Assembly (NCBI RefSeq): GCF_000260115.1
Contig: NZ_JH651379.1
Span: 2,397,466 to 2,461,465 of the forward strand
Reading direction: 5' to 3'
Source of the DNA: Galbibacter orientalis DSM 19592
GTDB taxonomy: Bacteria; Bacteroidota; Bacteroidia; Flavobacteriales; Flavobacteriaceae
DNA: 64,000 bases
Each line of letters starts with the position of its first letter. Position 1 is the first letter of the stretch. The notes under the pieces were generated by a model. The model saw only the letters and a list, made by a program, of their open reading frames with translations, did not search any database and was not told where the DNA came from. Below, one piece after another: positions 28,622 through 54,353 of the stretch. A program made the position numbers and the translations under genes.

Positions 28622-28638
28622 AGTGTGCAATTTACATT
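28622..28638. promoter_or_regulatory. AraR-like operator upstream of the GH127-GH51-araBDA operon
   Basis: AGTGT-GCAATTT-ACATT in the sequence TATAAGTGT..TTTACATTTT. The same 17-bp layout and flanking TATA occur at 32328-32344 before the second arabinosidase operon, and a perfect AGTGT-N7-ACACT version precedes SusC. AraR of Bacteroidota is a known regulator of arabinose genes; assigning this motif to it is inference. Confidence 0.6.
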
Positions 28639-28657
28639 TTTAATTTTAAAAAACAAG

Positions 28658-29638
28658 TTAATCTAAATAATCCTTATCTATTTTAGGCCATAACTCCTCA
28701 TCCCATTGCAATTCTAATACCTTTAGCTTAGGTTTTCCATTATCTTGAGCATCATAAGCATGGAAAAACAAATAATCCTTTCCATCAAAATTATAGGTAC
28801 TATTATGTCCTAAACCATACCAGTTTTTATTCCCTTCTAATACTAAGGTACCTCCTCCATTTACTAATGATTTCCCATTTTGATCTAGATAAGGCCCCAT
28901 TACTTTTTTAGACCTTCCTACTACAATTTTATAGGTACTTTCTTTACCTCTACAACATAAATCCCACGATAAAAACAGGTAATAATATCCGTTTTTCTTA
29001 AAAATAAAGGGCGCTTCTAAAGCTCCATTTCCAGGATCATTATCGAGAATCTTAAAGTCTCTTTCTCGTCTTGCAAGGGTGTGCCATTCTTCGGGTTTAG
29101 CAACCGATTTTAAATCTTTGCTTAATTTTACCAATTTTAAACCTTCCCAAAAAGAACCAAAAGACAACCATGGCGTATTGTTTTCATCAAATATTAAATT
29201 TGGATCAATAGCATTCCACATATCCCGATTGGGAACCGATTGAACAACAATCCCTGCGTCTTCCCATTTATAATTGGCATCAGTAGCATCTAAGGTTGTA
29301 TTTGTTGCTACACCTATTGCAGAAGTATTTTTTCCAAAGCTTGAAACCGAATAATATAAATAGTATTTTCCATTGTGAAAAGAAATATCTGGTGCCCAAA
29401 TATGATTTTTAAAATTAGGAACAACACTATCTGTCCATGTTGGTTTTTGCTGAAATACGGCTGGCTCTTTCTTCCAATCTTTTAAATCTTTAGAACTGTA
29501 ACTTGAAATTCCATTTCCTGTACAGAAAAGATAGTATGTATCTCCTTGTTTGGCAACTACAGGATCATGAACCATAATATCTTGAGCTAAAATTCCTGCT
29601 GAAAACAGTACAATACATAATTGAAAAAATAATTTCAT
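28658..29638 (-). CDS. GH43 arabinanase / arabinofuranosidase
   Basis: A 326-residue secreted enzyme with a 19-residue signal peptide (FSAGILAQ). The five-bladed propeller family GH43 is clear: catalytic base Asp25 in MVHDPVV, pKa-modulating Asp145 in AIDPNLIF, acid Glu208 in GALEAPFIF, and the IWAPDISFHNGKYYLYYS segment. Sequence layout fits endo-1,5-alpha-L-arabinanases, which cut the arabinan backbone; an exo mode cannot be excluded. It is the last gene of the GH51-GH43-GH43 unit, 151 bases behind the previous gene. Confidence 0.88.
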   Translation of the reverse strand: MKLFFQLCIVLFSAGILAQDIMVHDPVVAKQGDTYYLFCTGNGISSYSSKDLKDWKKEPAVFQQKPTWTDSVVPNFKNHIWAPDISFHNGKYYLYYSVSSFGKNTSAIGVATNTTLDATDANYKWEDAGIVVQSVPNRDMWNAIDPNLIFDENNTPWLSFGSFWEGLKLVKLSKDLKSVAKPEEWHTLARRERDFKILDNDPGNGALEAPFIFKKNGYYYLFLSWDLCCRGKESTYKIVVGRSKKVMGPYLDQNGKSLVNGGGTLVLEGNKNWYGLGHNSTYNFDGKDYLFFHAYDAQDNGKPKLKVLELQWDEELWPKIDKDYLD

Positions 29639-29789
29639 GCGAATAAATTTAGTTTAAACATCTCATTTTAAATATTTTATATTATTTCACAAAGAATGAC
29701 TCCCTTATAAAAATCTCTGCTTTATTCATTTTATTTTATGGAAACAATTACTTTGGCTATACTTAATCCCTTTATGAAGGATTCATTAC

Positions 29790-30752
29790 TCAATCATTAT
29801 TTTGAATTCCTTCAGAAGTCATTTGGATTCTCTTAATAGTTCCATCCTCATTATAGTATAAGCGGTCTATACAAACAGAACGCCTAAAACTCCCCCCATT
29901 AGGTTCAATACTTCCATTATGATATATAAAATATGGGATTCCTTTATACTCAATTATGGCTTGATGGTTTGTGTTTGTATTTCCTGCAACTTCATTTAAA
30001 ATTCCTTTAAATTCCCATGGACCAGTAATAGATTTACTCATAGCATAGGCTGTTTTTTCAGGAAAACCATATGCATAAGACAAATAATACCAGTCTCCTT
30101 TTTTATGTATCCAAGGAGCTTCTGTAAATTTAGGAAGGTCTACCGTATGGATGGGACCATCAAATTCTATCATATTTTCTTTTAATTTGGCATAATAACA
30201 AGCTGTATTACCCCAATATAAATAGGCTTGCCCATCATCATCTATAAAAACAGACGGATCAATATCATCCCAACTTATATCTGTATGCTCGGTAGTCATA
30301 TCATTAGTTACTAAAGCCTTTCCTAAAGCATCTTTAAAAGGTCCAGTTGGAGAATCGGAAACAGCTACACCAATTGCTTTTCCGTGTATGTTTTTATGAG
30401 TTACCGTAACATACCAATAAAACTTACCATCTCTTTCAATTACCTGTGCAGCCCAAGCATCTCCTTTAGCCCATTTAAAATCGGAAGGTTTTAAAGGTAC
30501 TGGATGCTCTTTCCAGTTTACCATATCTGTAGATGAGTATACCAACCATTCATCCATTTTATAAAAATGAAAATCTTTTGGAGCCTCATCATGCCCAGCA
30601 TATAAATACACTGTGTTGTTATGTACCAATGCCGCAGGATCTGCCGTAAACTTGTCTTTAATAATTGGATTATTAAAATTTTCTTGATCTTGAGCTTCTG
30701 TTAATAATGTTCCTATAAAAAATAGAAACACACTATATAATTTTACTCTCAT
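29790..30752 (-). CDS. GH43 glycosidase (arabinofuranosidase/xylosidase type)
   Basis: A 320-residue secreted enzyme; signal peptide ends near FFIGTLLTEAQ. Catalytic Asp38 in FTADPAALV, middle Asp in DDIDPSVFIDDDG and acid Glu in KFTEAPWIHKKGDWYYLSY mark GH43. The short single-domain form resembles arabinofuranosidase members that debranch arabinan or arabinoxylan oligosaccharides. It follows the GH51 gene by two bases, so the pair is coupled. Exact linkage specificity cannot be read from sequence. Confidence 0.87.
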   Translation of the reverse strand: MRVKLYSVFLFFIGTLLTEAQDQENFNNPIIKDKFTADPAALVHNNTVYLYAGHDEAPKDFHFYKMDEWLVYSSTDMVNWKEHPVPLKPSDFKWAKGDAWAAQVIERDGKFYWYVTVTHKNIHGKAIGVAVSDSPTGPFKDALGKALVTNDMTTEHTDISWDDIDPSVFIDDDGQAYLYWGNTACYYAKLKENMIEFDGPIHTVDLPKFTEAPWIHKKGDWYYLSYAYGFPEKTAYAMSKSITGPWEFKGILNEVAGNTNTNHQAIIEYKGIPYFIYHNGSIEPNGGSFRRSVCIDRLYYNEDGTIKRIQMTSEGIQNND

Positions 30753-30754: not shown

Positions 30755-32311
30755 TTATTTTATTTCAAAAACGATTACTGAAAAAGCAGGAACTTCAAGT
30801 TCAAGTGTTCCTTTCTTAAATTTAAAATCCTCATACTCTTTTACTACAATTTTGTTTGGATTTTCAAATGAATTATGATCCTGAACTTTAGCAGAAGTTA
30901 AGATGTTGGCTGTTGCCTTATTTAGCTTCATTTTTTGAAAATCTAGCGTAATCTTATGTGCTTTGTTCATATCAACATTTACCAAAGAAACATGTGCTAC
31001 TCCTTCTTTATTAATAGATGCAGACGCAGATATTGCTGGAACTGAATTTCCTTCAAACTCATATTTATCAGATTTTAAATCTATTGGTAACAAGGTTGCA
31101 TCTTGGTGCACCGCATACATTTTCATTACATGATAAGTTGGTGTAAGAATCATTTTTTCATCATCAGTAAGAATAACTGCTTGTAAAACATTTACGGTTT
31201 GCGCTAAATTAGCCATCTTAACACGTTCACTATGATTGTTAAAAATATTAAGTGTTGCCCCAGCAATCATGGCATCTCTCATAGTGTTTTGTTGGTATAA
31301 AAAACCAGGATTAGTTCCTTCTTCCACATTATACCAGCCACCCCATTCATCTACTATCAAGTCTATTTTTTTATCAGGATCATATTTGTCCATTACAGCA
31401 ACATGCTTGGTTATTAAAGTCTCCATATTCAATGCACGCTCCATAGTTTTAAAATATTGCTTTTCATTGAAATTAGCTGCAGGACCTTTATCATTCCATT
31501 CTACAAAAGAATAAGAATGTAATGCCACACCTTCTATAAGATGCTTTGGAATGTCTCTCATTAAAACTTCTGTCCAATGATAATCGTCTACATTTGCTCC
31601 AGAAGCAATTCTGTAAATCCCTTTATCATTATTCCAGCTACTCATAAAAGTAGCGTATTGACGATACAGATTTGCGTAATATTCTGGAGTCATATTACCA
31701 CCACAACCCCACATTTCATTACCTACTCCCCAATAAGTTACTCCCCAAGGTTTATCTCTCCCATTTTCTTTACGAAGGTTTGCCATCGGACTCTCCCCGT
31801 CGTGATTTACATATTGGATCCAATCGGTAAACTCTTTTACGGTTCCGCTCCCAATATTAGCTGCCAAGTAAGGTTCTGCCCCCAAAGCCTCACATAAATT
31901 TAAAAAATCGTGAGTTCCAAAACTATTATCTTCGGTTACCCCACCCCACCATTGATTCACAATAGTAGGTCGGTCTTCTTTAGCTCCAATACCATCTTTC
32001 CAATGATACGTATCTGCAAAACAACCTCCTGGCCAACGTAAATTTGGTACTTTTAACTCTTTAAGTGCTTCAATAATATCTGTACGTACCCCGTTTGTAT
32101 TAGGAATATTACTGTCTTCGCCTACATAAAAACCCCCGTAAATACAACGGCCTAAATGCTCTGCAAAATGCCCATAAATATGCTTACTTATTATGGGAGC
32201 ATTTTCCTTTTCTTGTATAGTAACTGTAGTTTGTGCACAAGTGACTCCTGCTAAAAGAAGGCAAAGTATCAATACAATACCTCTTGATTTTATATTTTTT
32301 TTTGAAATCAT
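30755..32311 (-). CDS. GH51 alpha-L-arabinofuranosidase (short form)
   Basis: A 518-residue enzyme with a signal peptide (LCLLLAGVTCAQ). It lacks the inserted binding module of the other GH51 in this window. The (β/α)8 barrel carries acid/base Glu199 in GVGNEMWG and nucleophile Glu322 in IVDEWGGWY; HIYGHFAEHLGRCIYGG is the family N-terminal signature. It liberates alpha-L-arabinose from short arabino-oligosaccharides. It heads the GH51-GH43-GH43 operon, with an AraR-like site 17 bases before the ATG, and is divergent from araR. Confidence 0.94.
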   Translation of the reverse strand: MISKKNIKSRGIVLILCLLLAGVTCAQTTVTIQEKENAPIISKHIYGHFAEHLGRCIYGGFYVGEDSNIPNTNGVRTDIIEALKELKVPNLRWPGGCFADTYHWKDGIGAKEDRPTIVNQWWGGVTEDNSFGTHDFLNLCEALGAEPYLAANIGSGTVKEFTDWIQYVNHDGESPMANLRKENGRDKPWGVTYWGVGNEMWGCGGNMTPEYYANLYRQYATFMSSWNNDKGIYRIASGANVDDYHWTEVLMRDIPKHLIEGVALHSYSFVEWNDKGPAANFNEKQYFKTMERALNMETLITKHVAVMDKYDPDKKIDLIVDEWGGWYNVEEGTNPGFLYQQNTMRDAMIAGATLNIFNNHSERVKMANLAQTVNVLQAVILTDDEKMILTPTYHVMKMYAVHQDATLLPIDLKSDKYEFEGNSVPAISASASINKEGVAHVSLVNVDMNKAHKITLDFQKMKLNKATANILTSAKVQDHNSFENPNKIVVKEYEDFKFKKGTLELEVPAFSVIVFEIK

Positions 32312-32327
32312 ATAGGTTAATTTATAA

Positions 32328-32344
32328 GTGTTATTTTTACATTT
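32328..32344. promoter_or_regulatory. AraR-like operator upstream of the GH51-GH43-GH43 operon
   Basis: AGTGT-TATTTTT-ACATT, same arms, spacing and TATA flank as the site at 28622. It is placed between the start of the arabinosidase operon and the divergent araR gene, so it could control both. Confidence 0.6.
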
Positions 32345-32627: not shown

Positions 32628-33317
32628 ATGTTAAATAATTATAGTAAAGAAGATAAGGTATTACTTGCCGTAGATTGTATCATTTTTGGGTTTGACAAAG
32701 AAGAACTTAAAATTTTATTGATTAAAAGAGATTTTGAGCCTGAAAAAGGAAAGTGGTCTCTTATGGGTGGATTTTTAAAACGCAATGAAACGTTAGATGA
32801 TTCGGCAAATAGGATTTTGCATCATTTAACGGGATTCCATAATATCTACATGGAGCAATTGTATGGTTTTAGTAAAGTGGACAGAGATCCAGCTGAACGA
32901 ACCGTTTCTGTAGCCTACTATGCCCTTATCAACATTGAAGAGCATAACCAAGAATTAATTGAGCAATATTCTGCTAGGTGGTTTAGTATTTCTGAGGCTC
33001 CAAAATTAATTTTTGATCATGACCAAATGGTAAACCATGCTATTAGGCGTTTGCGCTATCGAACTTCAAACAAACCTATTGGATTTGAATTATTACCTGA
33101 GAAATTTACAATGAGACAGCTTCAAAAACTTTATGAAGCTATTTTAGATGAAGAGCTTGATAAAAGAAATTTTATCAATAAAATAAATGGTTTGGACATC
33201 CTTATAAAGTTGACAGAAAAAGATATGTCTTCCTCTAGAAAAGGTTCTTTTCTATATCAATTTGATAAAGAAAAATATGACAAAAAAGTGGAAGATGGAT
33301 TTACTTTTAAAATATAA
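32628..33317 (+). CDS. araR: AraR-type Nudix-domain transcriptional regulator of arabinose use
   Basis: A 229-residue protein: Nudix-fold domain (about 8-145) followed by a winged-helix DNA-binding domain (about 155-225, FTMRQLQKLYEAILDEELDK, FINKINGLDILIKL). The frame is open further upstream, but family members start like MLNNYSKEDKVLLAVDCIIF, so I use 32628. The Nudix box GGFLKRNETLDDSANRILHH lacks the REUXEE glutamates, as expected for a sensor rather than a hydrolase. In Bacteroidota, Nudix-type AraR represses arabinose genes and binds L-arabinose. It is divergent from the arabinosidase operon and has its own terminator. Confidence 0.85.
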   Translation: MLNNYSKEDKVLLAVDCIIFGFDKEELKILLIKRDFEPEKGKWSLMGGFLKRNETLDDSANRILHHLTGFHNIYMEQLYGFSKVDRDPAERTVSVAYYALINIEEHNQELIEQYSARWFSISEAPKLIFDHDQMVNHAIRRLRYRTSNKPIGFELLPEKFTMRQLQKLYEAILDEELDKRNFINKINGLDILIKLTEKDMSSSRKGSFLYQFDKEKYDKKVEDGFTFKI

Positions 33318-34830: not shown

Positions 34831-34840
34831 TTTTATTTTT

Positions 34841-37800: not shown

Positions 37801-37990
37801 CCACCGTTTTGGAAATCGTTTCTGTGCTAGCTCCAGGATAGGTTGCCCTCACTACTACTGTTGGAGGAGCTACTTCTGGATACTGTGAAACAGGTAGCGA
37901 AAAATACGCCAATCCACCAACTATCATTAATATAATAGATATCACGATTGACAATATTGGACGCTCTATAAAAGTATGCGTGAATTTCAT
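34841..37990 (-). CDS. RND multidrug efflux permease (HAE1/AcrB type)
   Basis: A 1,049-residue inner-membrane pump of standard length with 12 helices and two large periplasmic loops. The proton-relay residues are present: Asp-Asp in IGIVVDDAIVVVENMERN (helix 4) and the Lys in VGLASKNAILIVEFAKQ (helix 10). It exports drugs or other amphiphiles using proton influx together with the adaptor and outer-membrane channel encoded on either side. The gene starts 33 bases after a rho-independent terminator hairpin, so its expression relative to the adaptor may be attenuated. Confidence 0.94.
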   Translation of the reverse strand: MKFTHTFIERPILSIVISIILMIVGGLAYFSLPVSQYPEVAPPTVVVRATYPGASTETISKTVATPLEQEINGVEGMIYMASQATNDGVMELTITFKQGVDVDNAQVLVQNRVAIAEPRLPEPVRRLGITTQKSAPDLMLVIHLISPEETYDQTYLANYANFQIIDKLSRIDGVGAVRMFGGDQYSMRIWLNPDLIANLDMTPNEVLTALRAQNVQIAGGTLNQQPLTTQNAFEINIQTQGRLNSIEEFENIIIRNGEDGALVRVKDIGRVELGSASYATKGYLSKYPAVALPVFQRPGTNALETADALINTMKEASKDFPEGIEYRIAYNPTEFIQQSIDEVGGTIYEAVILVVLVIILFLQTWRAAIIPILAIPVSLIGTFAVMQALGYSLNSLTLFGLVLAIGIVVDDAIVVVENMERNLREGMGVKQAAQKTMNEVGGALVAMGLVLVAVFLPTIFLKGISGQFYSQFGVTIAVATMISVFVSLTLSPAIAAKVMKKHDDSPKHSNVAAQGFITKFFDKFNQLMDWTSNKYAQLTSRLINIRKGVMLVYLGLIALTVFAFYKVPTGFIPEQDQGYFITVIQLPPGSSLERTDKVVNKAIDSVLKVDGVKDAVAFTGFDAATFTNSSNAGVIFTALESFEERNDKGVTYEGIQQSLTSSLSKMTDAYVIVIPPPPVRGIGNAGGFKLMLQDRGGLGNEQLLKSAYELMGAANQDPTMTNVFTFFNTSSPQLFFDLDKEKAQKLGVPIEEVSSALEVYLGSAFVNDFNLQGKTFRVTAQADGEFRYTPEDLEHIRVRNKYGNMIPLSAVGDLKDISGPARVPRYNLYPSLALTGNTTPGHSSGESLDAMEQLAAQILPDGIDYEWTEIAYQQKSTGNTAGIAFALAVLFVFLLLAAQYESWVLPLAVILIVPMCLLSAMFGVGIMGMDNNILTQIGLVVLVGLASKNAILIVEFAKQLEDRGYSLQEAAKEAARLRLRPILMTAFAFILGVIPLVTATGAGAEMRRSLGTAVFSGMLGVTLFGLLFTPVFYVLCRKMVLKKATVDVK

Positions 37991-38023
37991 TTTATTTTCT
38001 TTATATTTTTATTGGATTTTGAC

Positions 38024-38071
38024 AAAAAAAGAGCCTCCCTCAAATCAAAAAATATGATAAGAGGCTCTTTT
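38024..38071 (-). terminator. Terminator-like hairpin between adaptor and permease genes
   Basis: AAAAGAGCCTC (38027-38037) pairs perfectly with GAGGCTCTTTT (38061-38071); loop 23 bases. On the operon's strand the stem ends GAGGCTC followed by seven T, a proper intrinsic terminator, 33 bases before the permease ATG. Confidence 0.75.
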
Positions 38072-38148
38072 ACAGATGATTAAAAATTAGCTTTTTAACT
38101 AAGTCCTTTTAACCATCAAAAAAACAACTACATGAGAGTTATTGAAAT

Positions 38149-39309: not shown

Positions 39310-39344
39310 TTTTTGGATTTTTTTAGTTGTTTTTAATTATAATT

Positions 39345-39357: not shown

Positions 39358-39374
39358 TTACTAGTTAAAAAAAA

Positions 39375-42946: not shown

Positions 42947-45900
42947 TTACTTTAATGTAACATCTAAATAAACAGAATACCTATTGTAAGTATCATAAAA
43001 AGGTTTGTAAGTAATTCCATCAATTATAAATTCTAATTTTTCAGGATCTCCAGAAATATCCTTTCCTATCTCGTTTTTATCAAACGTAACCTTACGCCAT
43101 TCTGTACGGGGTTCAGACTCTTGAGCAACAAGTAAAATAGGACCATAAAATAAACTAGCTATATTTTGTTGATCCATTATTGATTCTAAATGAAACTGAA
43201 ATGGCATTTTTAATTCCACAGTATCCCCGTCTTTCCAAGTACGATTTAAGGTTAGGTAACTTCCAGGAATAGCTTCTACTTTTTCCTCTTTTCCATTAAT
43301 CTTCACTATAAAACCTTTGGTAGCCCAATTTGGTACACGAACTTTCAAATCAAATTTTCCATTACCATTAATAGTTAGTTGTGTAAAATCTTCTTTCGGG
43401 AAAGCAGTTTTTTGTGTAATTGTTAGCTTTTTTTCCGCCCAATGTAAAGTTGATGGCACATATAGATTTACATAAAGCGCGTCATTTTCTACACTTTTAA
43501 AATAAATAGAATTTTGAAGTTTTGTACTACTTTCTATAGCTGTACCGTTACAACAAGTAAACCCTTTCATATCTGGATTTCCAAAATGCTTTACAGAACC
43601 TGGTCTTAATGGAACATGGTATGTATTTGCTGGAGTTTTCTCTGCTACAGACGCTAGAATATGATTATATAAACCGCGTTCATAATAATCCATGTATTCG
43701 GCTCTTTGATCAAAAAGAAACAAGTTTCTCGTTAATTTAAGCATGTTATAGGTAGCACACGTTTCATTTTGCCCTCCTGCTGATAATCCATTTTCATATA
43801 TAGTTGCTGGTTGTGAGATAAAACATTCTGCATTTGCTGGGTTTCGTGCTCCTGCAACTCCACCAATACTATACATATAATCGTTTTTGCTTTTAAACCA
43901 AAAGTTATCGGCTATACGGTAATATTCGGCTGTATTGGAATCTCTATACATTTCTATGGCTCCCACAATTTGAGGAATGTGTTGATTGGCGTGAAGTCCT
44001 CTAAAAGTATCTACGTTCTTTGCTAGTCCGTTTGAATGGTTAGCATCGCCATAAAACACTTTAATATTATCAAATAATTGTGCCACTTGTAAGTATTTCT
44101 CTTCATCTGTTAACCTATATAAACGAGCCATTACTTCATTCATTCCTCCAAACTCTCCCGCAATATATCTATTCCACATACTAATCAGCGTTTCTGTTGG
44201 CAGTTCATTTAAACGAGCATAGACCCAACTCCCCATTCCTTCTGCAACTTCTAGTGCCTTTTTGTTTCCACTTACTTCATAAATATCTAATAAACCTGCA
44301 AGTATTTTATGTAGGGTATAATAAGGAGCCCAAACTTGGGTTTGTTGTCCTCCATAGGTAGCTCCATTTTCTAGCATAATAAATTGATCTGGCGGATATG
44401 CACTTATAAAGCCTTCTCCCCAGTTCCAATAATCGGTTCGAATTCCATCTTCACTTAAATCAGAATCATAGTTTGATTTTCCTGGTCCAGGAGGAACTTC
44501 TGTTGGATTAGCCACATAGGAACCATCTTTTGTTTTTGGATTTCCAGACATTTGAGCTAATTTGTACAAAGTATTTACCATATACTCCATCTTATCGGCA
44601 AAGTTATTTTGGAGCGATTTATCGTACCCCGTACTTGCATATGCCTGTGCAATTGCTGTGAGGTAATGCCCAGTTGCATGTCCGCGTAATTTAGTTTCCT
44701 GAGAATCCCATACTCCCAATGGCTCGGCAGCATCTGGTTGCGGCTGACCAAAAGTGTTTCGGAACATATATAAAAAAGCATCTGGATTTGTTTGAGCAAG
44801 AGTGCTTATAAACTTATCACGATTTTCAATAAATTTAGATTCATGACCATGAGTATCTACATCTAGAGAAACCTCATCTAACTCAAAAGCCTCTAAAGTT
44901 TTATCTGGTGTTGCAGATATTTTTGCATCTTTTACTGTAACAATAGCCTTAGGTTTTAAATTTGTTCCTGCAACACATCCTATTACCGTATAACTACCTG
45001 GTTTCTTAACCTCACTATTGTCTTTTGGCGCAGGCCAAATTACTCTAGCTTTTTCATTTTTTATTCCATTTCTATACACTCCTTTTACATAACGAGGTAA
45101 ACGAGGTAGGTAACCTACTACAGTTTCTACTTCAATATCTGGCACACTTGTTAAGTATTCGTTATAAAGTTGTGGGGTTGTTTCTGAAAAAATTGGTAGA
45201 TTATCATCAGGTTCTTCACGTTCGTTTACAACAGATTCCCCATCAGATAACGCATTTTTATATATTCTAGCTACTTGTTTTTCACTCAAAGGGATTCTAT
45301 AAATTCTAAAATCGTATAATTTAGCATCGAGATAGGATTTAGATGACACCGATTTTCCTATATAAAATTTATTATTTTCTCCTGAATTATTATCGAACAA
45401 CTCGGCTAGTATAACCTCAACATTTTCAGTTTCTTTTACCAACTTTCCATTTACATAGGTAGCAATAGTTTTTGAAGGAATATTAATAGTAACAGCCACA
45501 TGATTCCATTCGTTTACTTTTACTCCAGATGAAAGTGTTTGGTACATAGCTCCTTTGGCTGTTGTTATTTCTGCAACCAAGCCATCATTCTCTTTAGTTC
45601 CTGTAGGTGCTACAAAAAAATGTGCTTTGTTGCTTTCCCCAAAGTCAAAAAAATACTGATTTGCATTAGAAGAAGTTAGGTATAACCAACTTGTTATACT
45701 TATAGATTCCTCATTAGCAACAGTCCCTTTTGGAAGTTCTATATAATTTTTACCTTTTTCTGATAATGAAAGTACTTTCCCAAACTTACTATCATCTACA
45801 AATTGAAATCCATCACCATGAATTTCTCCATGTAAATTATTTCTAGACCAATCTTTTGCATCTCCATTAAAAACATAACGGGCAATTAATCCTGTTTCTC

Positions 45901-46003
45901 CAATTCCATCAAGAATCTGATCCCCACTTTGCGCTAATACTTTTGATGTACTTAAGGTTAAAAAAACTAACATTGTACATAGTAATAATTTGTATGTTTT
46001 CAT
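42947..46003 (-). CDS. GH146-type beta-L-arabinofuranosidase with LamG and Ig-like domains
   Basis: A 1,018-residue secreted protein; signal peptide ends TSKVLAQ (~25). Residues ~36-250 are a LamG/concanavalin-like domain (GLIARYVFNGDAKDWSRNNL; EWNHVAVTINIPSKTIATYV). About 285-360 is a group 4 bacterial Ig-like domain (VGYLPRLPRYVKGVYRNG). The catalytic (α/α)6 barrel follows from ~375. The zinc-thiolate site typical of GH127/GH146 is visible: Glu747 and Cys749 in QNETCATYN, Cys817-Cys818 in GFTCCNGT. The CCNGT form fits GH146 rather than the GH127 form at 26609. It removes beta-L-arabinofuranose; the extra domains probably hold it on the polymer. Confidence 0.85.
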   Translation of the reverse strand: MKTYKLLLCTMLVFLTLSTSKVLAQSGDQILDGIGETGLIARYVFNGDAKDWSRNNLHGEIHGDGFQFVDDSKFGKVLSLSEKGKNYIELPKGTVANEESISITSWLYLTSSNANQYFFDFGESNKAHFFVAPTGTKENDGLVAEITTAKGAMYQTLSSGVKVNEWNHVAVTINIPSKTIATYVNGKLVKETENVEVILAELFDNNSGENNKFYIGKSVSSKSYLDAKLYDFRIYRIPLSEKQVARIYKNALSDGESVVNEREEPDDNLPIFSETTPQLYNEYLTSVPDIEVETVVGYLPRLPRYVKGVYRNGIKNEKARVIWPAPKDNSEVKKPGSYTVIGCVAGTNLKPKAIVTVKDAKISATPDKTLEAFELDEVSLDVDTHGHESKFIENRDKFISTLAQTNPDAFLYMFRNTFGQPQPDAAEPLGVWDSQETKLRGHATGHYLTAIAQAYASTGYDKSLQNNFADKMEYMVNTLYKLAQMSGNPKTKDGSYVANPTEVPPGPGKSNYDSDLSEDGIRTDYWNWGEGFISAYPPDQFIMLENGATYGGQQTQVWAPYYTLHKILAGLLDIYEVSGNKKALEVAEGMGSWVYARLNELPTETLISMWNRYIAGEFGGMNEVMARLYRLTDEEKYLQVAQLFDNIKVFYGDANHSNGLAKNVDTFRGLHANQHIPQIVGAIEMYRDSNTAEYYRIADNFWFKSKNDYMYSIGGVAGARNPANAECFISQPATIYENGLSAGGQNETCATYNMLKLTRNLFLFDQRAEYMDYYERGLYNHILASVAEKTPANTYHVPLRPGSVKHFGNPDMKGFTCCNGTAIESSTKLQNSIYFKSVENDALYVNLYVPSTLHWAEKKLTITQKTAFPKEDFTQLTINGNGKFDLKVRVPNWATKGFIVKINGKEEKVEAIPGSYLTLNRTWKDGDTVELKMPFQFHLESIMDQQNIASLFYGPILLVAQESEPRTEWRKVTFDKNEIGKDISGDPEKLEFIIDGITYKPFYDTYNRYSVYLDVTLK

Positions 46004-46094: not shown

Positions 46095-48347
46095 CTAATT
46101 GTATATTTCATCCCAAGAAGGAGGATCTACTTCTAATAATTTTTTCACAAAGAAATCCTTACGTTTTTTATCTCCAAATGTTCCTCCAGATGAATGTCCC
46201 ATTCCTGGAACTACCACTAATTCGAAATTTTTTCCTGCTTTAATTAAAGCATTTGCAAACTGATATGTTGAAGCAGGGTCCACATTATCATCTACCTCCC
46301 CAACAATCAACATTAGATCTCCTTCCATTTGGGTTGCATTTTCAATATTTGAACATGCTGCATATTGAGGCCCAATTGGGAATCCCATCCACTGCTCGTT
46401 CCACCAAATTTTATCCATACGGTTATCATGGCAACCACAAGAAGCTACTGCCACATCATAAAAATCAGAATTAAAAACTAAGGCTGCACCTGCATTCTGT
46501 CCGCCTGCAGAAGTTCCTCTAATTCCAACTTTTTCAATATTCATATATGGATATTTCTTTGCTGCTGCTTGCATCCATAATTTTCTATCAGGAAAACCTG
46601 CATCTTTAAGATTTTTCCAACAAACATTATGAAAAGCTTTGGAACGATTGGAGGTCCCCATACCATCTATTTGAACCACAATAAAGCCCAGCTCTGCCAA
46701 AGAAGACATCGACCAATAATAACTTTGAAAACTTTTTGGCACAAAAGAATCATGAGGTCCCGCATAAATGTATTCAATAATTGGGTATGTTTTTGAAGGA
46801 TCAAAATTTGTTGGACGAACTATAATTCCCCAAATATCGGTTTTCCCGTCTCTTCCTTTTGCATTAAAAACTTCGGGAGACTTCCATCCAGTTGCTAAAA
46901 GTTCTGAAATATCAGCTTTTTGCAATTCTTTTATTATTTCACCTTTTTGATTTTTCAATAAAGTAACAGGTGGCATATCTACCCTTGAATATTGGTCTAC
47001 ATAATATTGATAATCATCTGAAAAACTTACCTTATGATTTCCATTTTCCTCAGTATATCTTTTAAAGTTTTTTCCATTAAAATCAATGCTACAATAGTGT
47101 TTAAAATATGGATCTTGATCTTGATCTAAACCACTTGCAATAAAATAAATACGCTTGTTTTCTTCATCTACTTTTACCACTTCCCGTACTGGCCACTTCC
47201 CTTTTGTTATTTGGCGAATTACTTTTCCAGTTTTTGCATCATATAAATATAAATGATTCCAGCCATCTCTTTCGGATGCCCAAATAATCTGTGCTCCATC
47301 GCTAGTATCATATCGATATTTTTTTTCGCTATAATCAATAAAAGTTGGGCTCGTCTCATTAATAATTACCTGTACTTTTCCAGTAGTTGCATCAACAGAA
47401 ATCACCCTATATTTTTGGTGTCCGCGCTCATTATATTCAAACCTAAAAGCACCACTGTCTTCTAGCCATTGTATAGTTCCTAAATGAAATTGTTGCTGAA
47501 ACTCATCTGTAGGAATTCTTATATGCTTTTTTGATGCAATCAAAAATAACTGCGGACTCCTAAATGCAACTTGATCTCCTGGTTTTAAATAATCTCTCGA
47601 TTGTAGCTTTGGCTGCAACTGATCTGTAGGACTAGACTCCACAAAATAAATCTTATGATCTTCTGCTGGACGTAATTTGTAAGCCATAATTTTCTTACCA
47701 TCTGGAGCCCATTTTATTTGCCATGAATAGTAATAACCATTAGACCCATCATAACTCAGCTGAGTTTCTTCCTCCGTCTTAATGTTTTTTATATATAAAT
47801 TGTAATTCTTAACATATGCAGTATACTTCTTATCTGGAGAAACTACTGGTTCCCCTTCCCGTTCATCATCTTTACTTCCCCAGTAATGCTGGCGATTGCT
47901 CTTTTCTAAAGTATCTAAAACCGTTAAGGTATAATCGGATAGGTTACATTTAACTTTGAGACTATCGGTATTAAATAAGACAGAATTTTGTTCTGTATTA
48001 AACTCTAAATCTGTTATAGCAATCTTCCCACTGGTAATTGTACCTTCTGTTAAAATTGATAAACTCTTAGCCATTCTCTCATGGTCAAAAGCCAATTCTT
48101 GGGAACTGCTTAAAGCGTTTACTTTTATATACTCTTTTCCTTGTGGCGTATTATTTACATACCAAAATAATTGATTGTTTTGCCAATAAAAAGCAGTTGG
48201 AGTATTGTATGTTTTGTTTTTAAACAATGTGTCTACAGCAATAGATCTTTTGTAATCTTTCAATGTTCCTTGTGCAAAGGAGAATAAAGAATTAAAAAGT
48301 GTTATAAACACACATATTTTACAGAGGTAGGTTTTCTTACTATACAT
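46095..48347 (-). CDS. S9-family (DPP IV-like) serine peptidase
   Basis: About 750 residues. I use the ATG at 48347 (MYSKKTYLCKICVF), giving a standard signal peptide ending LFSFAQ; the frame opens six codons earlier. Residues ~50-480 form a β-propeller (DPP IV N-terminal type: WGSKDDEREGEPVVSPDKKY; DGWNHLYLYDAKTGKVIRQI), then an α/β-hydrolase domain with nucleophile Ser in GIRGTSAGGQNAG, Asp in GEVDDNVDPAS and His in VVPGMGHSSGG. Such enzymes cleave dipeptides after proline or alanine from peptides. It lies among glycosidase genes, 91 bases after the GH146-type gene's upstream end, in the same orientation. Confidence 0.87.
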   Translation of the reverse strand: MYSKKTYLCKICVFITLFNSLFSFAQGTLKDYKRSIAVDTLFKNKTYNTPTAFYWQNNQLFWYVNNTPQGKEYIKVNALSSSQELAFDHERMAKSLSILTEGTITSGKIAITDLEFNTEQNSVLFNTDSLKVKCNLSDYTLTVLDTLEKSNRQHYWGSKDDEREGEPVVSPDKKYTAYVKNYNLYIKNIKTEEETQLSYDGSNGYYYSWQIKWAPDGKKIMAYKLRPAEDHKIYFVESSPTDQLQPKLQSRDYLKPGDQVAFRSPQLFLIASKKHIRIPTDEFQQQFHLGTIQWLEDSGAFRFEYNERGHQKYRVISVDATTGKVQVIINETSPTFIDYSEKKYRYDTSDGAQIIWASERDGWNHLYLYDAKTGKVIRQITKGKWPVREVVKVDEENKRIYFIASGLDQDQDPYFKHYCSIDFNGKNFKRYTEENGNHKVSFSDDYQYYVDQYSRVDMPPVTLLKNQKGEIIKELQKADISELLATGWKSPEVFNAKGRDGKTDIWGIIVRPTNFDPSKTYPIIEYIYAGPHDSFVPKSFQSYYWSMSSLAELGFIVVQIDGMGTSNRSKAFHNVCWKNLKDAGFPDRKLWMQAAAKKYPYMNIEKVGIRGTSAGGQNAGAALVFNSDFYDVAVASCGCHDNRMDKIWWNEQWMGFPIGPQYAACSNIENATQMEGDLMLIVGEVDDNVDPASTYQFANALIKAGKNFELVVVPGMGHSSGGTFGDKKRKDFFVKKLLEVDPPSWDEIYN

Positions 48348-48591
48348 AAGTATAAAACTATACATAAAATATGCCTTTTAGTTGAAGAATATTACCAGAA
48401 TATCATACTATCTTATCCGTTAAAAGATAAAACTACGATTTACAATGGTATTTTGGTATTAAGAAATAATGGAAACCACAAGAACACCCTAACTATTATA
48501 AGTAAAAATTAGCTAATTGTAGTATTATATTACCCTAAATAGTATATTTATACGTTATTATGACTAATATTGTTTAATTAGTTATATTATT

Positions 48592-49431
48592 ATGAAAGTA
48601 CTCCCCTTTAAAATACCTAAACCAGAACAAGAAGCACTGGTATATCAAGAAGATCATGAAGTTTATTTTTACGATCAACTCCATCAACATGAAGAAATTC
48701 AGATAAGTTTTATTAAAAAAGGAAGCGGTTCCTTAATTGTTGGAGACTCCATAAACACCTATAATAAAAATGATATTTTGGTTATAGGTGGAAGCATCCC
48801 CCACGTTTTTAAGAGTGATGTTGAGGCAGCTCCAGAATCTATTATGTATACTTTATTTTTTACAAAGCATGCTTTTGGAAATAACTTTTTTCAAATAAGC
48901 GACATGGAAGCTACCAAAGATTTTTTTAGACCTGCAGAATATGGTATGAAAATTTCTAAAAATCATAATAAAATCATTAGAGTTTTTAATAAACTACAAA
49001 ATCAAAATAAAATACAACGTATTGCTTCATTACTGAAAATTATAAATCAGATTATTGAAACTGAATACACGCCTCTTTCTTCTTTTGTATATGAGAAAAA
49101 TTATACAGATGATGAAGGAAAACGTATGAGAGCTGTATTTGAACATGCTATGGAAAATTACCACAATCAGATAACTTTAGAGGAGGTAGCAAATATTGCT
49201 AATATGACTAAAAACGCATTTTGTAGGTATTTTAAAAAGCGTACCAATAAAACTTTTTTTCAATTCTTAATAGAAATACGTATTGAAAATGCCTGTAAAT
49301 TACTTTATCGAAACAAAGAAATGTCTATTACAACCATTTCTGAATTATGTGGTTTTCAAAATATTACAAATTTCAACAGAAAATTTAAAGAGCTTAAAGG
49401 CACTACGCCATCTCAATATAGAGCTCAATAA
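48592..49431 (+). CDS. AraC-family regulator with cupin sensor domain
   Basis: A 279-residue regulator. The N-terminal cupin-like part (YFYDQLHQHEEIQISFIKKG; YNKNDILVIGGSIPHVFKSD) is typical of sugar-responsive AraC proteins; the C-terminal two-HTH module (ITLEEVANIANMTKNAFCRY; FFQFLIEIRIENACKLL; ISELCGFQNITNFNRKFKEL) is intact. It is divergent from the S9 peptidase and convergent with SusD, so it probably activates the DUF5695/GH146/S9 group. It is transcribed towards a hairpin repeat and a bidirectional terminator. Confidence 0.9.
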   Translation: MKVLPFKIPKPEQEALVYQEDHEVYFYDQLHQHEEIQISFIKKGSGSLIVGDSINTYNKNDILVIGGSIPHVFKSDVEAAPESIMYTLFFTKHAFGNNFFQISDMEATKDFFRPAEYGMKISKNHNKIIRVFNKLQNQNKIQRIASLLKIINQIIETEYTPLSSFVYEKNYTDDEGKRMRAVFEHAMENYHNQITLEEVANIANMTKNAFCRYFKKRTNKTFFQFLIEIRIENACKLLYRNKEMSITTISELCGFQNITNFNRKFKELKGTTPSQYRAQ

Positions 49432-49652: not shown

Positions 49653-51254
49653 CTAATAGCCAGGATTTTGTTTTAAGTTTGTATTGGTATTTAGTTCTTC
49701 TAATCCAATAGGAAATATAATGGTATGATCTCCTTGTGGAGTATGATTATACCAGTTTTTGGTTTGAAAAACTCCAAAGCGAATTAAATCGGTTCTTCTA
49801 TGAGCTTCCGCAGCAAATTCCCAGCCCAATTCATCTAAAAAGCGACCATATTGAACAGGAGATTGATCTCCAGGAGCATCAATACTTCCATCTTCTGCTA
49901 GTGTTCCATATTCTACAGTGGTATCTGCTTCCAATTCTGCACCAGTTACAGTAGCATCTGCTGGATTATCAAAAGAACGCATTCGCACCTCGGTTACAAT
50001 TTGAGCTGCAACACCACTTTGACCAGTTCTTAATAAACTTTCAGCTTTCATCATTAAAACTTCTGTATATCTTAAAAAAGGAAAATCGTTATTCAACGCT
50101 CCGGTTGCTCCTGGTTCAATTTCATATTTTGCACAACGAAATCCTTCAGTAAAGGTACAGTCGTAAATACTTGGCATCTCTTTTACTAAAGTCATTACAA
50201 CACTCCCATCTTTAGCATTTAATTGGTCTCCCATTAACCAAGTATCGGATAAACGTTTATCTGTTGCTTCGTAGCTATCTATAAATTGCGGATTACAACT
50301 TGAACCTCCCCAAGGCTGTGATTCCATATCAAACACCAATCTATGATCTGGCAATAACATTTTCATATGCGCATTCCATTCTGCAGCATAAATTTGATCA
50401 TAAGGAACTGCAAAAACCATTTCAGGATTTCCTTCATTTTGAGCACTAAAAATATCTCGGTAATTAGCAGAAAGGCTATATTTTTTACTATTTATAATTT
50501 CATTACAAGCAGCAATACATTTATCCCATTGCGGCGTTCCTGTATATACTTCGGCATTTAGATATACCTCTGCCAACACATGGTATGCAGCCCATTTTGT
50601 CATCCGTCCATAAGTTGACTGATCTACGGTTTCAGATAGTGAAGGAATCACCTCAGTTAATTCGGAAACTATAAAATTGTAAACTTCTTCTCGGTTACTC
50701 TGCACTGGTAATTCATCACTATAGCTTGCTATAATAGGCACATTTCCGTGAGTATCTATTAACATTGAATAATACAAGGCTCTTAAAGCTCTCATTTCGG
50801 CAACAATATTAGCAGCTTGTTCTTCAGAAACTGGTAATCCTCCAGATTCAATTTGTAGAATCACTCTGTTTGCACTATTGATACCGTTAAAACACGTTAT
50901 CCAAGAATTTCTAGGCTGGTACTGCGTATTATCCCATTTATGAAAATGCATTCTCTTATAAGTTCCTCCATCATCCCAACCGTTTGGTCTTGTAGGAGTT
51001 ACAAACATATCTGCAGGCTCTTCTTGCACATCAAAATAACCCTGCCACCCCATAATATATCTTAAAGGAGTGTATGCTGAAGCCATTACAGCCACAATAT
51101 CTGTTTCTGCAGGAACAAAAGAATCTTCTGTTACCTCTGAAAAAACCTCTTCATCAAGATTTGTACATCCTACAAAAGTAAAACCTGCTACTAATGCGAA
51201 CATCCAAAATTTTATCATAAATGAAGTCATATAATTTATTTTTCTATTATTCAT
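49653..51254 (-). CDS. SusD/RagB-family outer-membrane glycan-binding lipoprotein
   Basis: A 533-residue protein. The signal ends in lipobox VGCTN (Cys ~30), placing it on the outer-membrane surface. SusD features include N-terminal helices with TPR character (ADIVAVMASAYTPLRYIMGW; EMRALRALYYSMLIDTHGN), NDFPFLRYTEVLMMKAESLL in the middle-to-late part, and a C-terminal ELGWEFAAEAHRRTDLIRFG. It captures oligosaccharides and closes the SusC transporter like a lid. It follows susC by 11 bases. The substrate is not readable; the arabinosidase neighbours and the shared operator suggest arabinose-containing glycans. Confidence 0.94.
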   Translation of the reverse strand: MNNRKINYMTSFMIKFWMFALVAGFTFVGCTNLDEEVFSEVTEDSFVPAETDIVAVMASAYTPLRYIMGWQGYFDVQEEPADMFVTPTRPNGWDDGGTYKRMHFHKWDNTQYQPRNSWITCFNGINSANRVILQIESGGLPVSEEQAANIVAEMRALRALYYSMLIDTHGNVPIIASYSDELPVQSNREEVYNFIVSELTEVIPSLSETVDQSTYGRMTKWAAYHVLAEVYLNAEVYTGTPQWDKCIAACNEIINSKKYSLSANYRDIFSAQNEGNPEMVFAVPYDQIYAAEWNAHMKMLLPDHRLVFDMESQPWGGSSCNPQFIDSYEATDKRLSDTWLMGDQLNAKDGSVVMTLVKEMPSIYDCTFTEGFRCAKYEIEPGATGALNNDFPFLRYTEVLMMKAESLLRTGQSGVAAQIVTEVRMRSFDNPADATVTGAELEADTTVEYGTLAEDGSIDAPGDQSPVQYGRFLDELGWEFAAEAHRRTDLIRFGVFQTKNWYNHTPQGDHTIIFPIGLEELNTNTNLKQNPGY

Positions 51255-51265: not shown

Positions 51266-54262
51266 TTATAATGTGAAATTAATTCCTAGTGTAAATGTTC
51301 TGGTAGATGGATATTTATCCCTTTCATCATTTCCAGGTGCAAGTCCGTCTCTATTAACCTCAGGATCAATCCCCTTATAACTAGTAAAAGTAGCTAGGTT
51401 TAATCCTGAAAAATAGATTCGGAAACTGTCTGTAAACTTTAAAGCATCCTTAGGTAAAGTATATCCTAAAGTAACATTATCAATTTTTAAGAAATCTCCA
51501 TCTTCAACATAATAACTTACATAACGCTGCACATCGTTTAAAACTGCTTTTCCATACACCTCATCAAATGCAGAATCTAGCACATTGTAATTTACTGTAG
51601 GGTTCTCGTAAAACATTCTTGAAAAATTAAGTATTTGATAATCAAGCGCTCCACGTAAATTCATATTAAAATCCCAGTTTTTATATCTTACTGTGTTATT
51701 CCAACTATAATAAGCGGTTGGCAAACCATTTCCAAGAATTTGTCTATCCTCGGTAGTAGCTTCTGTAGCAGGAATAATTCTTCCGTCAGGAGTTTCTATA
51801 AGAAAAACCCCATCATCTGTAATATCTACACTTTTAAGTCCAAAGAAATTCCCAATAGGTTCCCCTTCTTTTACTCGATGTGTTTCTATTTGGATTGGTT
51901 CTCCAGTATATCCTTGATCAAAAAAATCATTAGTCAACTGGAATTCATCATTAGATAAAGAAACTACTTTATTGGTATTTGTAGAATACGTTAAATTAGC
52001 AGTCCATGTAAAGTTTTCTGTTTCAAATGGAGTTACATTCAGTAAAAATTCCAACCCTGAATTTTCAAGTTCCGCCACATTTGCTGCTATAGTTCCATAA
52101 AAATAAGGAGGTGTTGGTACGCTATAATCAAACAATGCTCCTTCTGTTCTTCTTTGATAATAATCTACAGAACCACTAATACGATTGTTTAAAACTCCAA
52201 AATCCAATCCAAAGTTTAACTCTTTCTTCTTTTCCCAGCGTAAATTTGGATTTGCATTTCTAGAAGGCACTAATTCTCTAATCCACTCTCCATTGTTTAA
52301 AAAGTAGTCGCCATAAGTTAATCCACTAAGCGATTGGTAATTTGAACCTGCATTAATTCCAGTAATACCATAACCTGCACGAAGCTTTAAGTTATCAATC
52401 CAGTCAACATTTTCCATAAACTCTTCTTGATCTATACGCCATCCAGCGGAGATCCCTGGGAAATTACCCCATTTATTGTCTTCTCCAAATCGAGAAGAAC
52501 CTTCATGACGGATACTTGCTAACAACAAATAACGGTCGTCATAATTATAAGTTACCCTTCCAAAAAAGGCTATTAATTTATCTGAGTTTTTATAACTACT
52601 CATGCCTGCTTCTCCAAGCTGTAGACCTTGCCCAGAACCAATATTATTATAAGAAAAACCATCTGTTGGGAAACGTCTGTTGGTTGCCCAAAAGCCTTCG
52701 TTTACATTATCTTCATAATTATAACCCGCTAAACCTGTAACGGTATGTTTTCCAAAAGTTTGTTTATAATCGAGGGTTAATTGTCCATAATTTCCTCTAT
52801 AATCGTCTGTCCCTCTGGAAGCAAAACCATCTTGACCATATTTTACAGTCGACACATGATTTTTAGTTTGGTAGAATCCACGAATGTTTGAATTTCCTTT
52901 TCGTGTATACAATCCTTTCAACGTAAAATTATCATTAAAATCATAACTCATACTAAAATCAAAACGAACATTTCTATAACGATTCTCCCCTATTGTTTCT
53001 TGAATATAACCAACAGGATTATCATAGAAATAAACATCTCTTTCAAACCAATTACCATTATCATCATAAACGGGCTCAGTAGGGTTACGTATAATGGCCT
53101 GTCTATATATGTACGGATCAAAACTGGTACCATCTCCAAGAGCGTTGTAGACCTGCTCACTCGCAATCATGGCAACATTTGTTTTCAATTTATTATCAAA
53201 CATTGCATGGTTTACACTAATACGACCCGTATATTTTTCGGTCTCCGACTTGTCGAAAATTCCTTCTAAATCTCTATAGTTAATAGATGCTGTAATATTA
53301 GTAGCATCATTTCCACCTCTAAAAATTAAGTTATGAACTTGACTTACGGCGTCTCTAGTAATCTCGTCCAGCCAATCGGTATCGTGACCAAAATCTTGTA
53401 AGTTTGCGCCAACAAAAGTATATCCTTCAGCATATTTTTGTCTTAATTCTCCTGCATCCAAAAAGTCCATTTGTCTTGCAATGGTAGACAAAGAAGAATA
53501 TCCATTGTATTCTATAGAAGGCTTTGCATTATAATTTCCTTTTTTGGTAGTAATAATAATAACTCCATTAGTTCCACGAGTTCCATATATTGCTGTAGCA
53601 GAACCATCTTTTAAAACGTCTATCGACTCAATATCCTCTGGCGCTACAGTACCTAAACTCCCCGGCACTCCATCTACCAATACCAATGGATTTGTACCCC
53701 CGCTTAAGGAGGAAGTTCCTCTTAATTTTATTTGGGAGCTCTGTGTAGGATCTCCAGAAGGGGCAGATACTGTTAAACCTGCAACTTTTCCTTGTATAAG
53801 TTGTGCAGCATCTTTTACATTACCCTGTACAAAGTCTTCCGACTTTACAGTGGCCACGGCACTGGTTACATCTGCTTTCTTTTGAGTTCCATAACCTATT
53901 ACTACTACTTCATCTAGTTCTTGAAGGTTCTCTTTAAGTGTAATATCAAAAGTAGTTTCTGTTCCTACTTTTACTTCTGAATTTGTAAAACCTATGTAAG
54001 AAATTACAATCGCTGCATTTGAAGATGCAACCGACATTTCGAATTCACCATCAAAATTAGTCACAACACCATTTGAGGTATTTTTTTCTGCCACAGAAGC
54101 TCCGGCAATTGGTATTCCTTGTTCATCTCTTACAATTCCATTAATTTGTTGTTGCGCCAACGAAACAAATGAGGTTAAAAGAAAAAATAGTGTAAAAAGC
54201 AGTTTTGGAATACCAAAATTTATTCCAGCTTTTACCCTATGAGGGAAGTTAGTTTGTTCCAT
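51266..54262 (-). CDS. SusC/RagA-family TonB-dependent outer-membrane transporter
   Basis: A 998-residue transporter. It has a signal peptide (FFLLTSFVSLAQ), then a carboxypeptidase-regulatory-like domain (INGIVRDEQGIPIAGASVAE, residues ~40-115), the TonB-box/plug start (ELDEVVVIGYGTQKKADVTS), SusC signature PLVLVDGVPG with IESIDVLKDGSATAIYGTRG, and the 22-strand barrel ending TFTLGINFTL. It imports oligosaccharides bound by SusD using TonB energy. There is no N-terminal sigma/anti-sigma STN domain, so control should be by a DNA-binding regulator; a perfect AGTGT-N7-ACACT palindrome lies 75 bases upstream of the ATG. Confidence 0.95.
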   Translation of the reverse strand: MEQTNFPHRVKAGINFGIPKLLFTLFFLLTSFVSLAQQQINGIVRDEQGIPIAGASVAEKNTSNGVVTNFDGEFEMSVASSNAAIVISYIGFTNSEVKVGTETTFDITLKENLQELDEVVVIGYGTQKKADVTSAVATVKSEDFVQGNVKDAAQLIQGKVAGLTVSAPSGDPTQSSQIKLRGTSSLSGGTNPLVLVDGVPGSLGTVAPEDIESIDVLKDGSATAIYGTRGTNGVIIITTKKGNYNAKPSIEYNGYSSLSTIARQMDFLDAGELRQKYAEGYTFVGANLQDFGHDTDWLDEITRDAVSQVHNLIFRGGNDATNITASINYRDLEGIFDKSETEKYTGRISVNHAMFDNKLKTNVAMIASEQVYNALGDGTSFDPYIYRQAIIRNPTEPVYDDNGNWFERDVYFYDNPVGYIQETIGENRYRNVRFDFSMSYDFNDNFTLKGLYTRKGNSNIRGFYQTKNHVSTVKYGQDGFASRGTDDYRGNYGQLTLDYKQTFGKHTVTGLAGYNYEDNVNEGFWATNRRFPTDGFSYNNIGSGQGLQLGEAGMSSYKNSDKLIAFFGRVTYNYDDRYLLLASIRHEGSSRFGEDNKWGNFPGISAGWRIDQEEFMENVDWIDNLKLRAGYGITGINAGSNYQSLSGLTYGDYFLNNGEWIRELVPSRNANPNLRWEKKKELNFGLDFGVLNNRISGSVDYYQRRTEGALFDYSVPTPPYFYGTIAANVAELENSGLEFLLNVTPFETENFTWTANLTYSTNTNKVVSLSNDEFQLTNDFFDQGYTGEPIQIETHRVKEGEPIGNFFGLKSVDITDDGVFLIETPDGRIIPATEATTEDRQILGNGLPTAYYSWNNTVRYKNWDFNMNLRGALDYQILNFSRMFYENPTVNYNVLDSAFDEVYGKAVLNDVQRYVSYYVEDGDFLKIDNVTLGYTLPKDALKFTDSFRIYFSGLNLATFTSYKGIDPEVNRDGLAPGNDERDKYPSTRTFTLGINFTL

Positions 54263-54303
54263 AATACATGTTTTTCTAGTTAGAATTTAGTTTTGGATTA
54301 GCT

Positions 54304-54334
54304 ATATATTTGAAGTAAAGCACTTCATATATAT
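54304..54334. promoter_or_regulatory. 13-bp inverted repeat in the susC promoter region
   Basis: Left arm 54304-54316 (ending TGAAGT), five-base spacer AAAGC, right arm 54322-54334 (starting ACTTCA); 12 of 13 positions pair. It lies between the AGTGT palindrome and the susC start, so it could be a second operator or part of the leader RNA. Confidence 0.45.
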
Positions 54335-54336
54335 TT

Positions 54337-54353
54337 AGTGTCTTTATTACACT
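54337..54353. promoter_or_regulatory. Perfect AGTGT-N7-ACACT palindrome upstream of susC (AraR-like)
   Basis: AGTGT-CTTTATT-ACACT, fully symmetric arms with the same 7-base spacing as the sites before both arabinosidase operons. It makes susCD a candidate member of the arabinose regulon. Confidence 0.6.

Follow-up and report, generated by a model that had tools for sequence, protein, structure and literature searches.

The Nudix-type regulator AraR is known from Bacteroides and Prevotella, where operons for SusC/SusD importer pairs (susCD) are under its control (PMC4666351), among them BT0365-60, an AraR-controlled operon with two susCD pairs (PMC3878776); statements resting on cited papers refer throughout to the parts of those papers available to us. 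The operators of the Bacteroides thetaiotaomicron protein (BtAraR) are AGTGTTACTTTTACACC, AGTGTATTTGATACACC and AGTGTAAAAAAGACACT, one of which was crystallised with the protein, the contacts defining a GTGT motif (PMC4666351). Since susCD operons are already under AraR in Bacteroides, a regulon joining enzymes and importer is of a known kind; no paper on a Nudix AraR outside Bacteroides and Prevotella was found among the literature matches listed. Here we analyse a 64,000-nucleotide stretch of the Galbibacter orientalis DSM 19592 genome (the window; contig NZ_JH651379.1, positions 2,397,466 to 2,461,465) and describe a 17-bp motif, AGTGT-N7-ACAYT, which is that of the published BtAraR operator. 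It is very probably the operator of a dimeric Nudix-type repressor AraR encoded at 32628-33317, which would unite two arabinosidase operons and a susCD operon in one regulon.

The likeness to the B. thetaiotaomicron AraR regulon (BT0354; araMPRDAB, BT0365-60; PMC4666351, PMC3878776) extends from the regulator family and its sensor and main helix residues to the operator half-sites, the 7-base spacer and the predicted control of arabinose catabolism, of enzymes of glycoside hydrolase (GH) families GH51 and GH43, and of susCD operons. In contrast to that regulon, GH127 operons carry sites here, the operators extend over 26 kb, three of the six listed base-contacting residues are changed, a susCD locus with a GH146-type enzyme and a prolyl peptidase is added, and no hybrid two-component gene was seen in the 29 of 46 window open reading frames (ORFs) scanned. 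By analogy with BtAraR, AraR dimers would in the absence of L-arabinose sit on TAAGTGT-N7-ACAYTTA before the arabinosidase operons and susCD and block them, and L-arabinose bound by the Nudix domain would turn the winged helices off the DNA and switch on the whole gene set. The elements concerned are as follows.

28622-28638, AGTGTGCAATTTACATT: predicted AraR operator before GH127-GH51-araB-araD-araA(-araM-symporter) (pattern search of window and genome)
32327-32343, AGTGTTATTTTTACATT: predicted AraR operator before GH51-GH43-GH43, between GH51 and the divergent araR (pattern search)
54337-54353, AGTGTCTTTATTACACT: predicted AraR operator, fully symmetric, before susC-susD (pattern search)
48298-48314: probable AraR operator, 9/10, in the signal-peptide codons of an S9 peptidase (homologous place in relatives)
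32628..33317, forward strand: araR, Nudix domain and NrtR-type winged helix, predicted arabinose-responsive repressor (Pfam and PDB match)
51266..54262, reverse strand: susC (TIGR04056, 771 bits; Pfam)
49653..51254, reverse strand: susD (Pfam)
48592..49431, forward strand: AraC-family regulator (Pfam; orthologues beside a hydroxyproline operon in relatives)

The motif, its spacing and its positions were observed directly, as were its rarity genome-wide, its conservation among relatives and its co-occurrence with the regulator. The first three sites end 30 bases before the GH127 start codon (28591), 15 bases before the GH51 start codon (32311) and 74 bases before the susC start codon (54262), respectively, and the flank TTATA is common to those at 28622 and 32327. 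An initial annotation of the window had located all three, placing the second one base too far on, at 32328, and had rightly noted a shared flank, there read as TATA. A search of the 4.51-Mb genome with the strict motif gives 8 copies, 3 of them in the 64-kb window (binomial p 1.5e-4); 4 of the 8 lie outside genes, each before GH127, GH51, susC or a susC on the second contig (C1 and C2 denote the contigs of this genome, G numbers the genomes compared and L numbers the fetched loci). The remaining 4 fall in called frames of genes unrelated to these, coding for a DUF4270 protein, an M1 peptidase, a CNNM/CorC protein and a short-chain dehydrogenase. Three copies in the genome match the extended motif AAGTGT-N7-ACAYTT perfectly, one before each arabinosidase operon and one before the C2 susC, and the copy before the window susC departs from it at a single flanking base. 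Five places in the window score at least 9 of 10, against a background of 0.03 per kb: the three named sites, 48298-48314, and a match at 27111 that was set aside as lying in GH127 coding DNA. Allowing up to two mismatches gave 100 matches compared with a mean of 88.6 in shuffles, and from this lack of excess we conclude that weak matches mean nothing; a one-mismatch genome scan was likewise discarded as mostly noise (77 rows against 50 for the control, palindromic sites being counted twice).

The araR product carries the Pfam domains NUDIX, NrtR_WHD and AraR_C above their cut-offs, and its best PDB match is BtAraR (5bs6, E 1.6e-72), with which it aligns without gaps at 50% identity. Its ORF opens at a GTG at 32562, and the BtAraR match begins at the ATG at 32628, the start given in the initial annotation. 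The L-arabinose contacts R34, R86 and H131 are kept, as is the base-contacting helix D178-K179-R180-N181 (DKRN). All six base contacts (K179, R180, N181, K184, K204 and R205) have been called invariant (PMC4666351), an invariance that does not extend to flavobacterial orthologues: among 36 of these, DKRN is present in every one, residue 184 is N or S in 34 and residue 205 is K in 35, and their operators keep the motif despite the changed residues 184 and 205. The gene is clustered with arabinose genes in the window, and relatives of the window ara, GH51, GH43 or GH127 genes occur in the fetched stretch at 25 of the 36 orthologous AraR loci.

Conservation of the motif was assessed in a family set of 299 genomes, of which 107 encode an AraR relative at E 1e-30 or better and 38, own genome included, a close one (better than 1e-100). 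Neighbourhoods of up to ~10 kb on each side were fetched for 36 of the 38 other close AraR copies (G143 has two copies); those of G228 and G251, near contig starts, were left out. Within these 36 neighbourhoods, where noncoding DNA makes up 8.3% of bases, half-sites at spacing 7 gave 60 sites, 57 of them noncoding, compared with 12 sites, 1 noncoding, for spacings 3-6 and 8-12 together. The genes faced by noncoding sites within 500 bases were AraR (34), SusC-like (25), GH51 (10), araB (7), GH127 (1) and others (15), with one site facing none. The 28622 operator lies at the same place in the same-genus genome G030 (locus L052), and for the 32327 operator 33 of 36 orthologous neighbourhoods hold noncoding motif sites. 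A wider set, drawn in part from the same genomes, was built from an alignment of 16 AraRs that retrieved 589 relatives in named genomes; among the best 80 of these 589, spacing 7 gave 105 sites, 102 noncoding, in 54 loci, and the nine other spacings together gave 18 sites, 3 noncoding. Noncoding sites in these 80 loci occur in Flavobacterium, Zunongwangia, Salinimicrobium, Chryseobacterium, Epilithonimonas, Neolewinella, Marinoscillum and a Cytophagia metagenome-assembled genome. Two AraR loci, L073 and L077, hold four and seven noncoding operator copies, respectively, in ~20 kb.

Several results weigh against a single AraR regulon of this extent. The published contacts K184, K204 and R205 are N184, R204 and K205 in the window AraR. 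Noncoding sites are absent from 3 of the 36 AraR neighbourhoods and from 26 of the best 80 of 589 loci, including those of Bacteroidales, Chitinophaga, Mucilaginibacter and Spirosoma, with a strict pattern that would also miss the ACACC half-site of BtAraR. The genome-wide motif excess is modest, with 538 copies against 321 for the control in 37 AraR genomes and 390 against 337 in 37 genomes without a close AraR (Mann-Whitney p 0.009 for the contrast), since chance copies dominate the counts; some of the comparison genomes carry a second AraR clade, which blurs the contrast. The C2 susC site is weakly conserved, being found in one of four relatives (G144, two 9/10 variants) with none scoring at least 9 in G030, G117 and G220, and a search for Bacteroidota promoter boxes beside the operators gave nothing convincing and no clear -7 box. 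Finally, no site precedes the susC relatives of G143, G117, G100, G144 and G159, the second susC copies of G094, G030 and G144, or susC relatives of lower identity.

Alternatively, the susC site could be a chance palindrome, with AraR owning only the two arabinosidase operons and the AraC-family gene at 48592 controlling susCD. Such a division would agree with the flanking base that the window site lacks, with the AraC gene adjoining susD and being kept in relatives, and with the finding that only 10 of 30 susC relatives (own included; the family search scored two candidates per genome) have a best match of at least 8.5/10 within 100 bases of the start, scoring 10 in the own genome, 9 in G030, 8.5 in G075, 10 in G094, 9 in G297 and again 9 in its second copy, 9.5 in G251, 10 in G245, 9 in G127 and 9.5 in G196. 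We nevertheless regard it as very unlikely, as among susC orthologues of at least 63% identity the site is kept in 6 of 7 others, at 8.5-10 of 10 and 14-84 bases before the start, with spacer letters and distances that differ. The missing one of the seven is G143, and in this genome, as in the more distant and likewise site-less G117 and G100, a hydroxyproline operon on the same strand lies 142-238 bases ahead of susC; site-less susC of G144 stands behind another same-strand gene at 248 bases. Where a site is present and context was fetched, susC is either divergent from its neighbour (G030, G094, G251, G127) or preceded by a same-strand gene at 264-702 bases (G075, G297, G245, G196). We read this as operator loss where susC was drawn behind another operon; a stricter rule, under which every susC at the head of its own unit would have a site, is too strong in view of G075, G297, G245, G196 and the site-less G144. 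Genomes with a susC relative also carry a close AraR in 19 of 22 cases (38 of 299 overall; p 8.9e-17), and in 14 of 14 where the relative has at least 44% identity. The motif could instead be owned by a paralogue, that is a Nudix protein beside galK-galT or xylose genes, or by another regulator; there are three such Nudix proteins in the own genome, and the Xyl-type locus L097 has a motif copy. Against this, the motif occurs in 0 of 8 Gal-linked and 1 of 7 Xyl-linked loci (the own two and selected relatives), and the paralogues carry recognition helices D-(P/S/D/A)-(R/G)-N (Gal-linked) and D-K-(S/P)-N (Xyl-linked) rather than the DKRN of AraR, which leaves ownership by another protein highly improbable. 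In the second AraR clade (53-59% identity) all 7 selected loci carry the motif, in L103 only within a called ORF. A regulon in which a single AraR would govern both enzymes and importer, as the initial annotation had proposed, is the reading best supported by operator identity with BtAraR, by the kinship of the window regulator to BtAraR with its DKRN helix, by a motif that tracks AraR orthologues rather than paralogues and by conservation of the susC site.

The paralogues are of interest in their own right. A Gal-type Nudix/NrtR regulator is encoded in the own genome at L017:9504-10208 (C2:336509-337192), with relatives in L088 and L090-L095; it neighbours galK-galT in 6 of 8 loci, retains R34, R86 and H131, has V at position 36 and is a candidate D-galactose regulator. 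The table of B. thetaiotaomicron NrtR-family regulators in the available part of PMC3878776 lists no Nudix regulator linked to galK-galT, no title among the literature matches listed pointed to a Nudix galactose regulator, and the AraR and GalR of PMC5507952 belong to other families. The XylR-type paralogue (L018:9680-10399, C1:2795685) is divergent from genes for an MFS transporter, an FGGY kinase, xylose isomerase and GH2, and its group has H at residue 34 and S or P at 180. The B. thetaiotaomicron XylR (BT0791; PMC3878776) is of the same NrtR family and serves another sugar, and the xylose-linked proteins examined here differ from AraR in their helix residues and in having the motif at only one of seven loci.

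Downstream of susCD on the same strand lies a second set of genes that may belong to the regulon.

46095..48365, reverse strand: S9 peptidase (DPPIV / prolyl tripeptidyl type) with signal peptide (Pfam; nearest PDB 2d5l/2eep; N-terminus read from the translation)
42947..46003, reverse strand: LamG-Big_4-GH146-like beta-L-arabinofuranosidase (Pfam; nearest PDB 5opj, which we take to be BT0349, 8k7y and 8k7x; GH146 label assigned by inference)
40151..42850, reverse strand: DUF5695 protein (Pfam), with no PDB relative at E 0.001

Where GH family names go further than the labels of Pfam, NCBIfam and PDB, they follow general usage or PMC10850190. The 9/10 site at 48298-48314, missed in the initial annotation, is a probable AraR operator of the S9-GH146-like-DUF5695 operon. 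At the homologous place S9 orthologues score 9 (G030), 9.5 (G094), 9 (G297) and 10 (G127) of 10, with nothing in G143 and no score of at least 9 in G117 and G100 (L268, L269); the site is thus present in 4 of 7 relatives, and it is missing in just the three where S9 stands behind susCD on the same strand. Coding constraint may contribute to conservation of the site, which encodes part of the signal peptide (S/C-V-x-x-T/A-L). An operator within these codons would act as a roadblock. A fourth strict intergenic site in the genome lies 151 bases before the C2 susC (loci L016:7848-14661 and L051), whose operon comprises susCD, DUF2264, GH16-like, BNR_4, GH88-like, GH2, melibiase and GH43 genes and would fit a substrate of the arabinogalactan-protein type. 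Judging from these sequences, the AraR regulon is probably larger than first annotated, including the S9 peptidase operon and this second susCD operon.

By family, the susCD/S9/GH146-like locus brings together a beta-L-arabinofuranosidase, a Pro-specific peptidase and an importer. Exactly this susCD-S9 set has a hydroxyproline operon of four genes next to it in six genomes (G094, G297, G143, G127, G117 and G100); the identity of the operon was guessed before the domain scan, which agreed, and in G297 it encodes a 4-hydroxyproline epimerase (NCBIfam, 600 bits against a cut-off of 376), a DAO oxidoreductase, an aldehyde dehydrogenase and a DHDPS-family protein. Related systems have been described. 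XeHypBA1 is a GH146 enzyme acting mainly on Araf-beta-Hyp (arabinofuranose linked to hydroxyproline), and a figure legend names LamG and Ig domains for Bll3HypBA1 (PMC10850190). The XeHypBA1/BA2/AA cluster of Xanthomonas euvesicatoria resembles the present locus in its GH146 (label from PMC10850190) and GH43 enzymes and in a predicted prolyl oligopeptidase gene, a pseudogene in Xanthomonas, next to the GH43 gene; unlike here, the available part of that report mentions no susCD, AraR or hydroxyproline operon (PMC6085000). The Bifidobacterium BauR-HypBA1/HypBA2 system for beta-arabino-oligosaccharides of hydroxyproline-rich glycoproteins likewise places a beta-L-arabinofuranosidase and an importer under one sugar regulator, but differs in its LacI-family regulator and ABC or permease import, and hydroxyproline catabolism is not mentioned in the available part of its description (PMC5928203). 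The GH146 and prolyl oligopeptidase precedents, together with the adjoining hydroxyproline operons, lead us to propose that the susCD/S9/GH146-like/DUF5695 part would serve, under AraR, for the use of arabinosylated hydroxyproline-rich glycoproteins of the extensin type, a reading whose chances we place slightly under even. SusCD would import Hyp-arabinoside glycopeptides, the GH146-type enzyme would remove beta-arabinofuranose, the prolyl peptidase would cut the peptide part, and the hydroxyproline operon, adjacent in the six relatives and located elsewhere in the own genome, would burn the amino acid.

The competing view, that this part serves ordinary arabinan and that relatives carry the hydroxyproline genes next to it by chance, is about as probable, falling just short of an even chance. 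S9 peptidases are widespread, which counts in its favour, and the epimerase alone is common, occurring in 152 of 299 genomes. For the founding member of GH146, the reported substrates are oligosaccharides derived from arabinan (PMC10850190). In the own genome the hydroxyproline genes are grouped at and near C1:839205 (L267), away from susCD, and have no credible operator, two identical 9/10 matches upstream (L267:15396 and 15736) having been rejected as part of an apparent intergenic repeat. What speaks for the glycoprotein reading is the recurrence of the adjoining hydroxyproline operon in six genomes, in five of which the epimerase either was the query (L171) or shares 81-83% identity with it; elsewhere identity is at most 78%, except in G079 (81%). 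Sites before susC and in S9 accompany the adjoining operon in G094, G297 and G127; G143, G117 and G100 show neither, which speaks against AraR control in those three. It is for this reason that the wider proposal, that a single AraR in Flavobacteriaceae ties the breakdown of arabinan to the import and complete degradation of arabinosylated hydroxyproline-rich glycoproteins, is held at a little below rather than at an even chance. Orthologues of the AraC-family gene at 48592-49431 are divergent from the hydroxyproline operon in relatives, and its product is possibly a hydroxyproline or peptide sensor. No susCD locus for extensin or hydroxyproline glycoproteins was recognised by title among the literature matches listed.

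The arabinosidase and arabinose-catabolism operons governed by the first two sites, as predicted, consist of the following genes.

30755..32311, reverse strand: GH51-type alpha-L-arabinofuranosidase (Pfam)
29790..30752, reverse strand: GH43 (Pfam)
28658..29638, reverse strand: GH43 (Pfam)
26609..28591, reverse strand: GH127 beta-L-arabinofuranosidase (Pfam)
24614..26587, reverse strand: GH51-type alpha-L-arabinofuranosidase (Pfam)
20689..24609, reverse strand: araB (FGGY kinase), araD (class II aldolase) and araA (arabinose isomerase) (Pfam)
17761..20576, reverse strand: aldose epimerase (araM) and SSF symporter (Pfam)

The araM and symporter genes are probably in the same transcription unit as GH127-GH51-araBDA. 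A weak 8/10 operator that had been suggested before them (20607-20623) could not be upheld, being at chance level: in 8 relatives with adjacent araA and araM the gap measures 18-55 bases, with a best motif score of 6 to 8 of 10 and no operator. ROK-family and LacI-family genes lie directly downstream of the mutarotase-symporter genes, at 14938-17136, and an RND efflux operon with a TetR regulator (33394-39971) separates araR from the DUF5695-GH146-susCD part.

These observations extend a crystallographically understood switch of gut bacteria to many other Bacteroidota, including Flavobacterium, Zunongwangia, Salinimicrobium, Chryseobacterium and Neolewinella, with an operator simple enough for regulons to be annotated by pattern near araR. 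The kind of regulon being known already, what is added is the wide conservation of the operator, a control from the paralogues, one further probable operator and the link to hydroxyproline. The latter offers a concrete candidate route by which Bacteroidota may feed on wall glycoproteins of the extensin type; if this is true, AraR would report on a protein substrate by way of its sugar coat.

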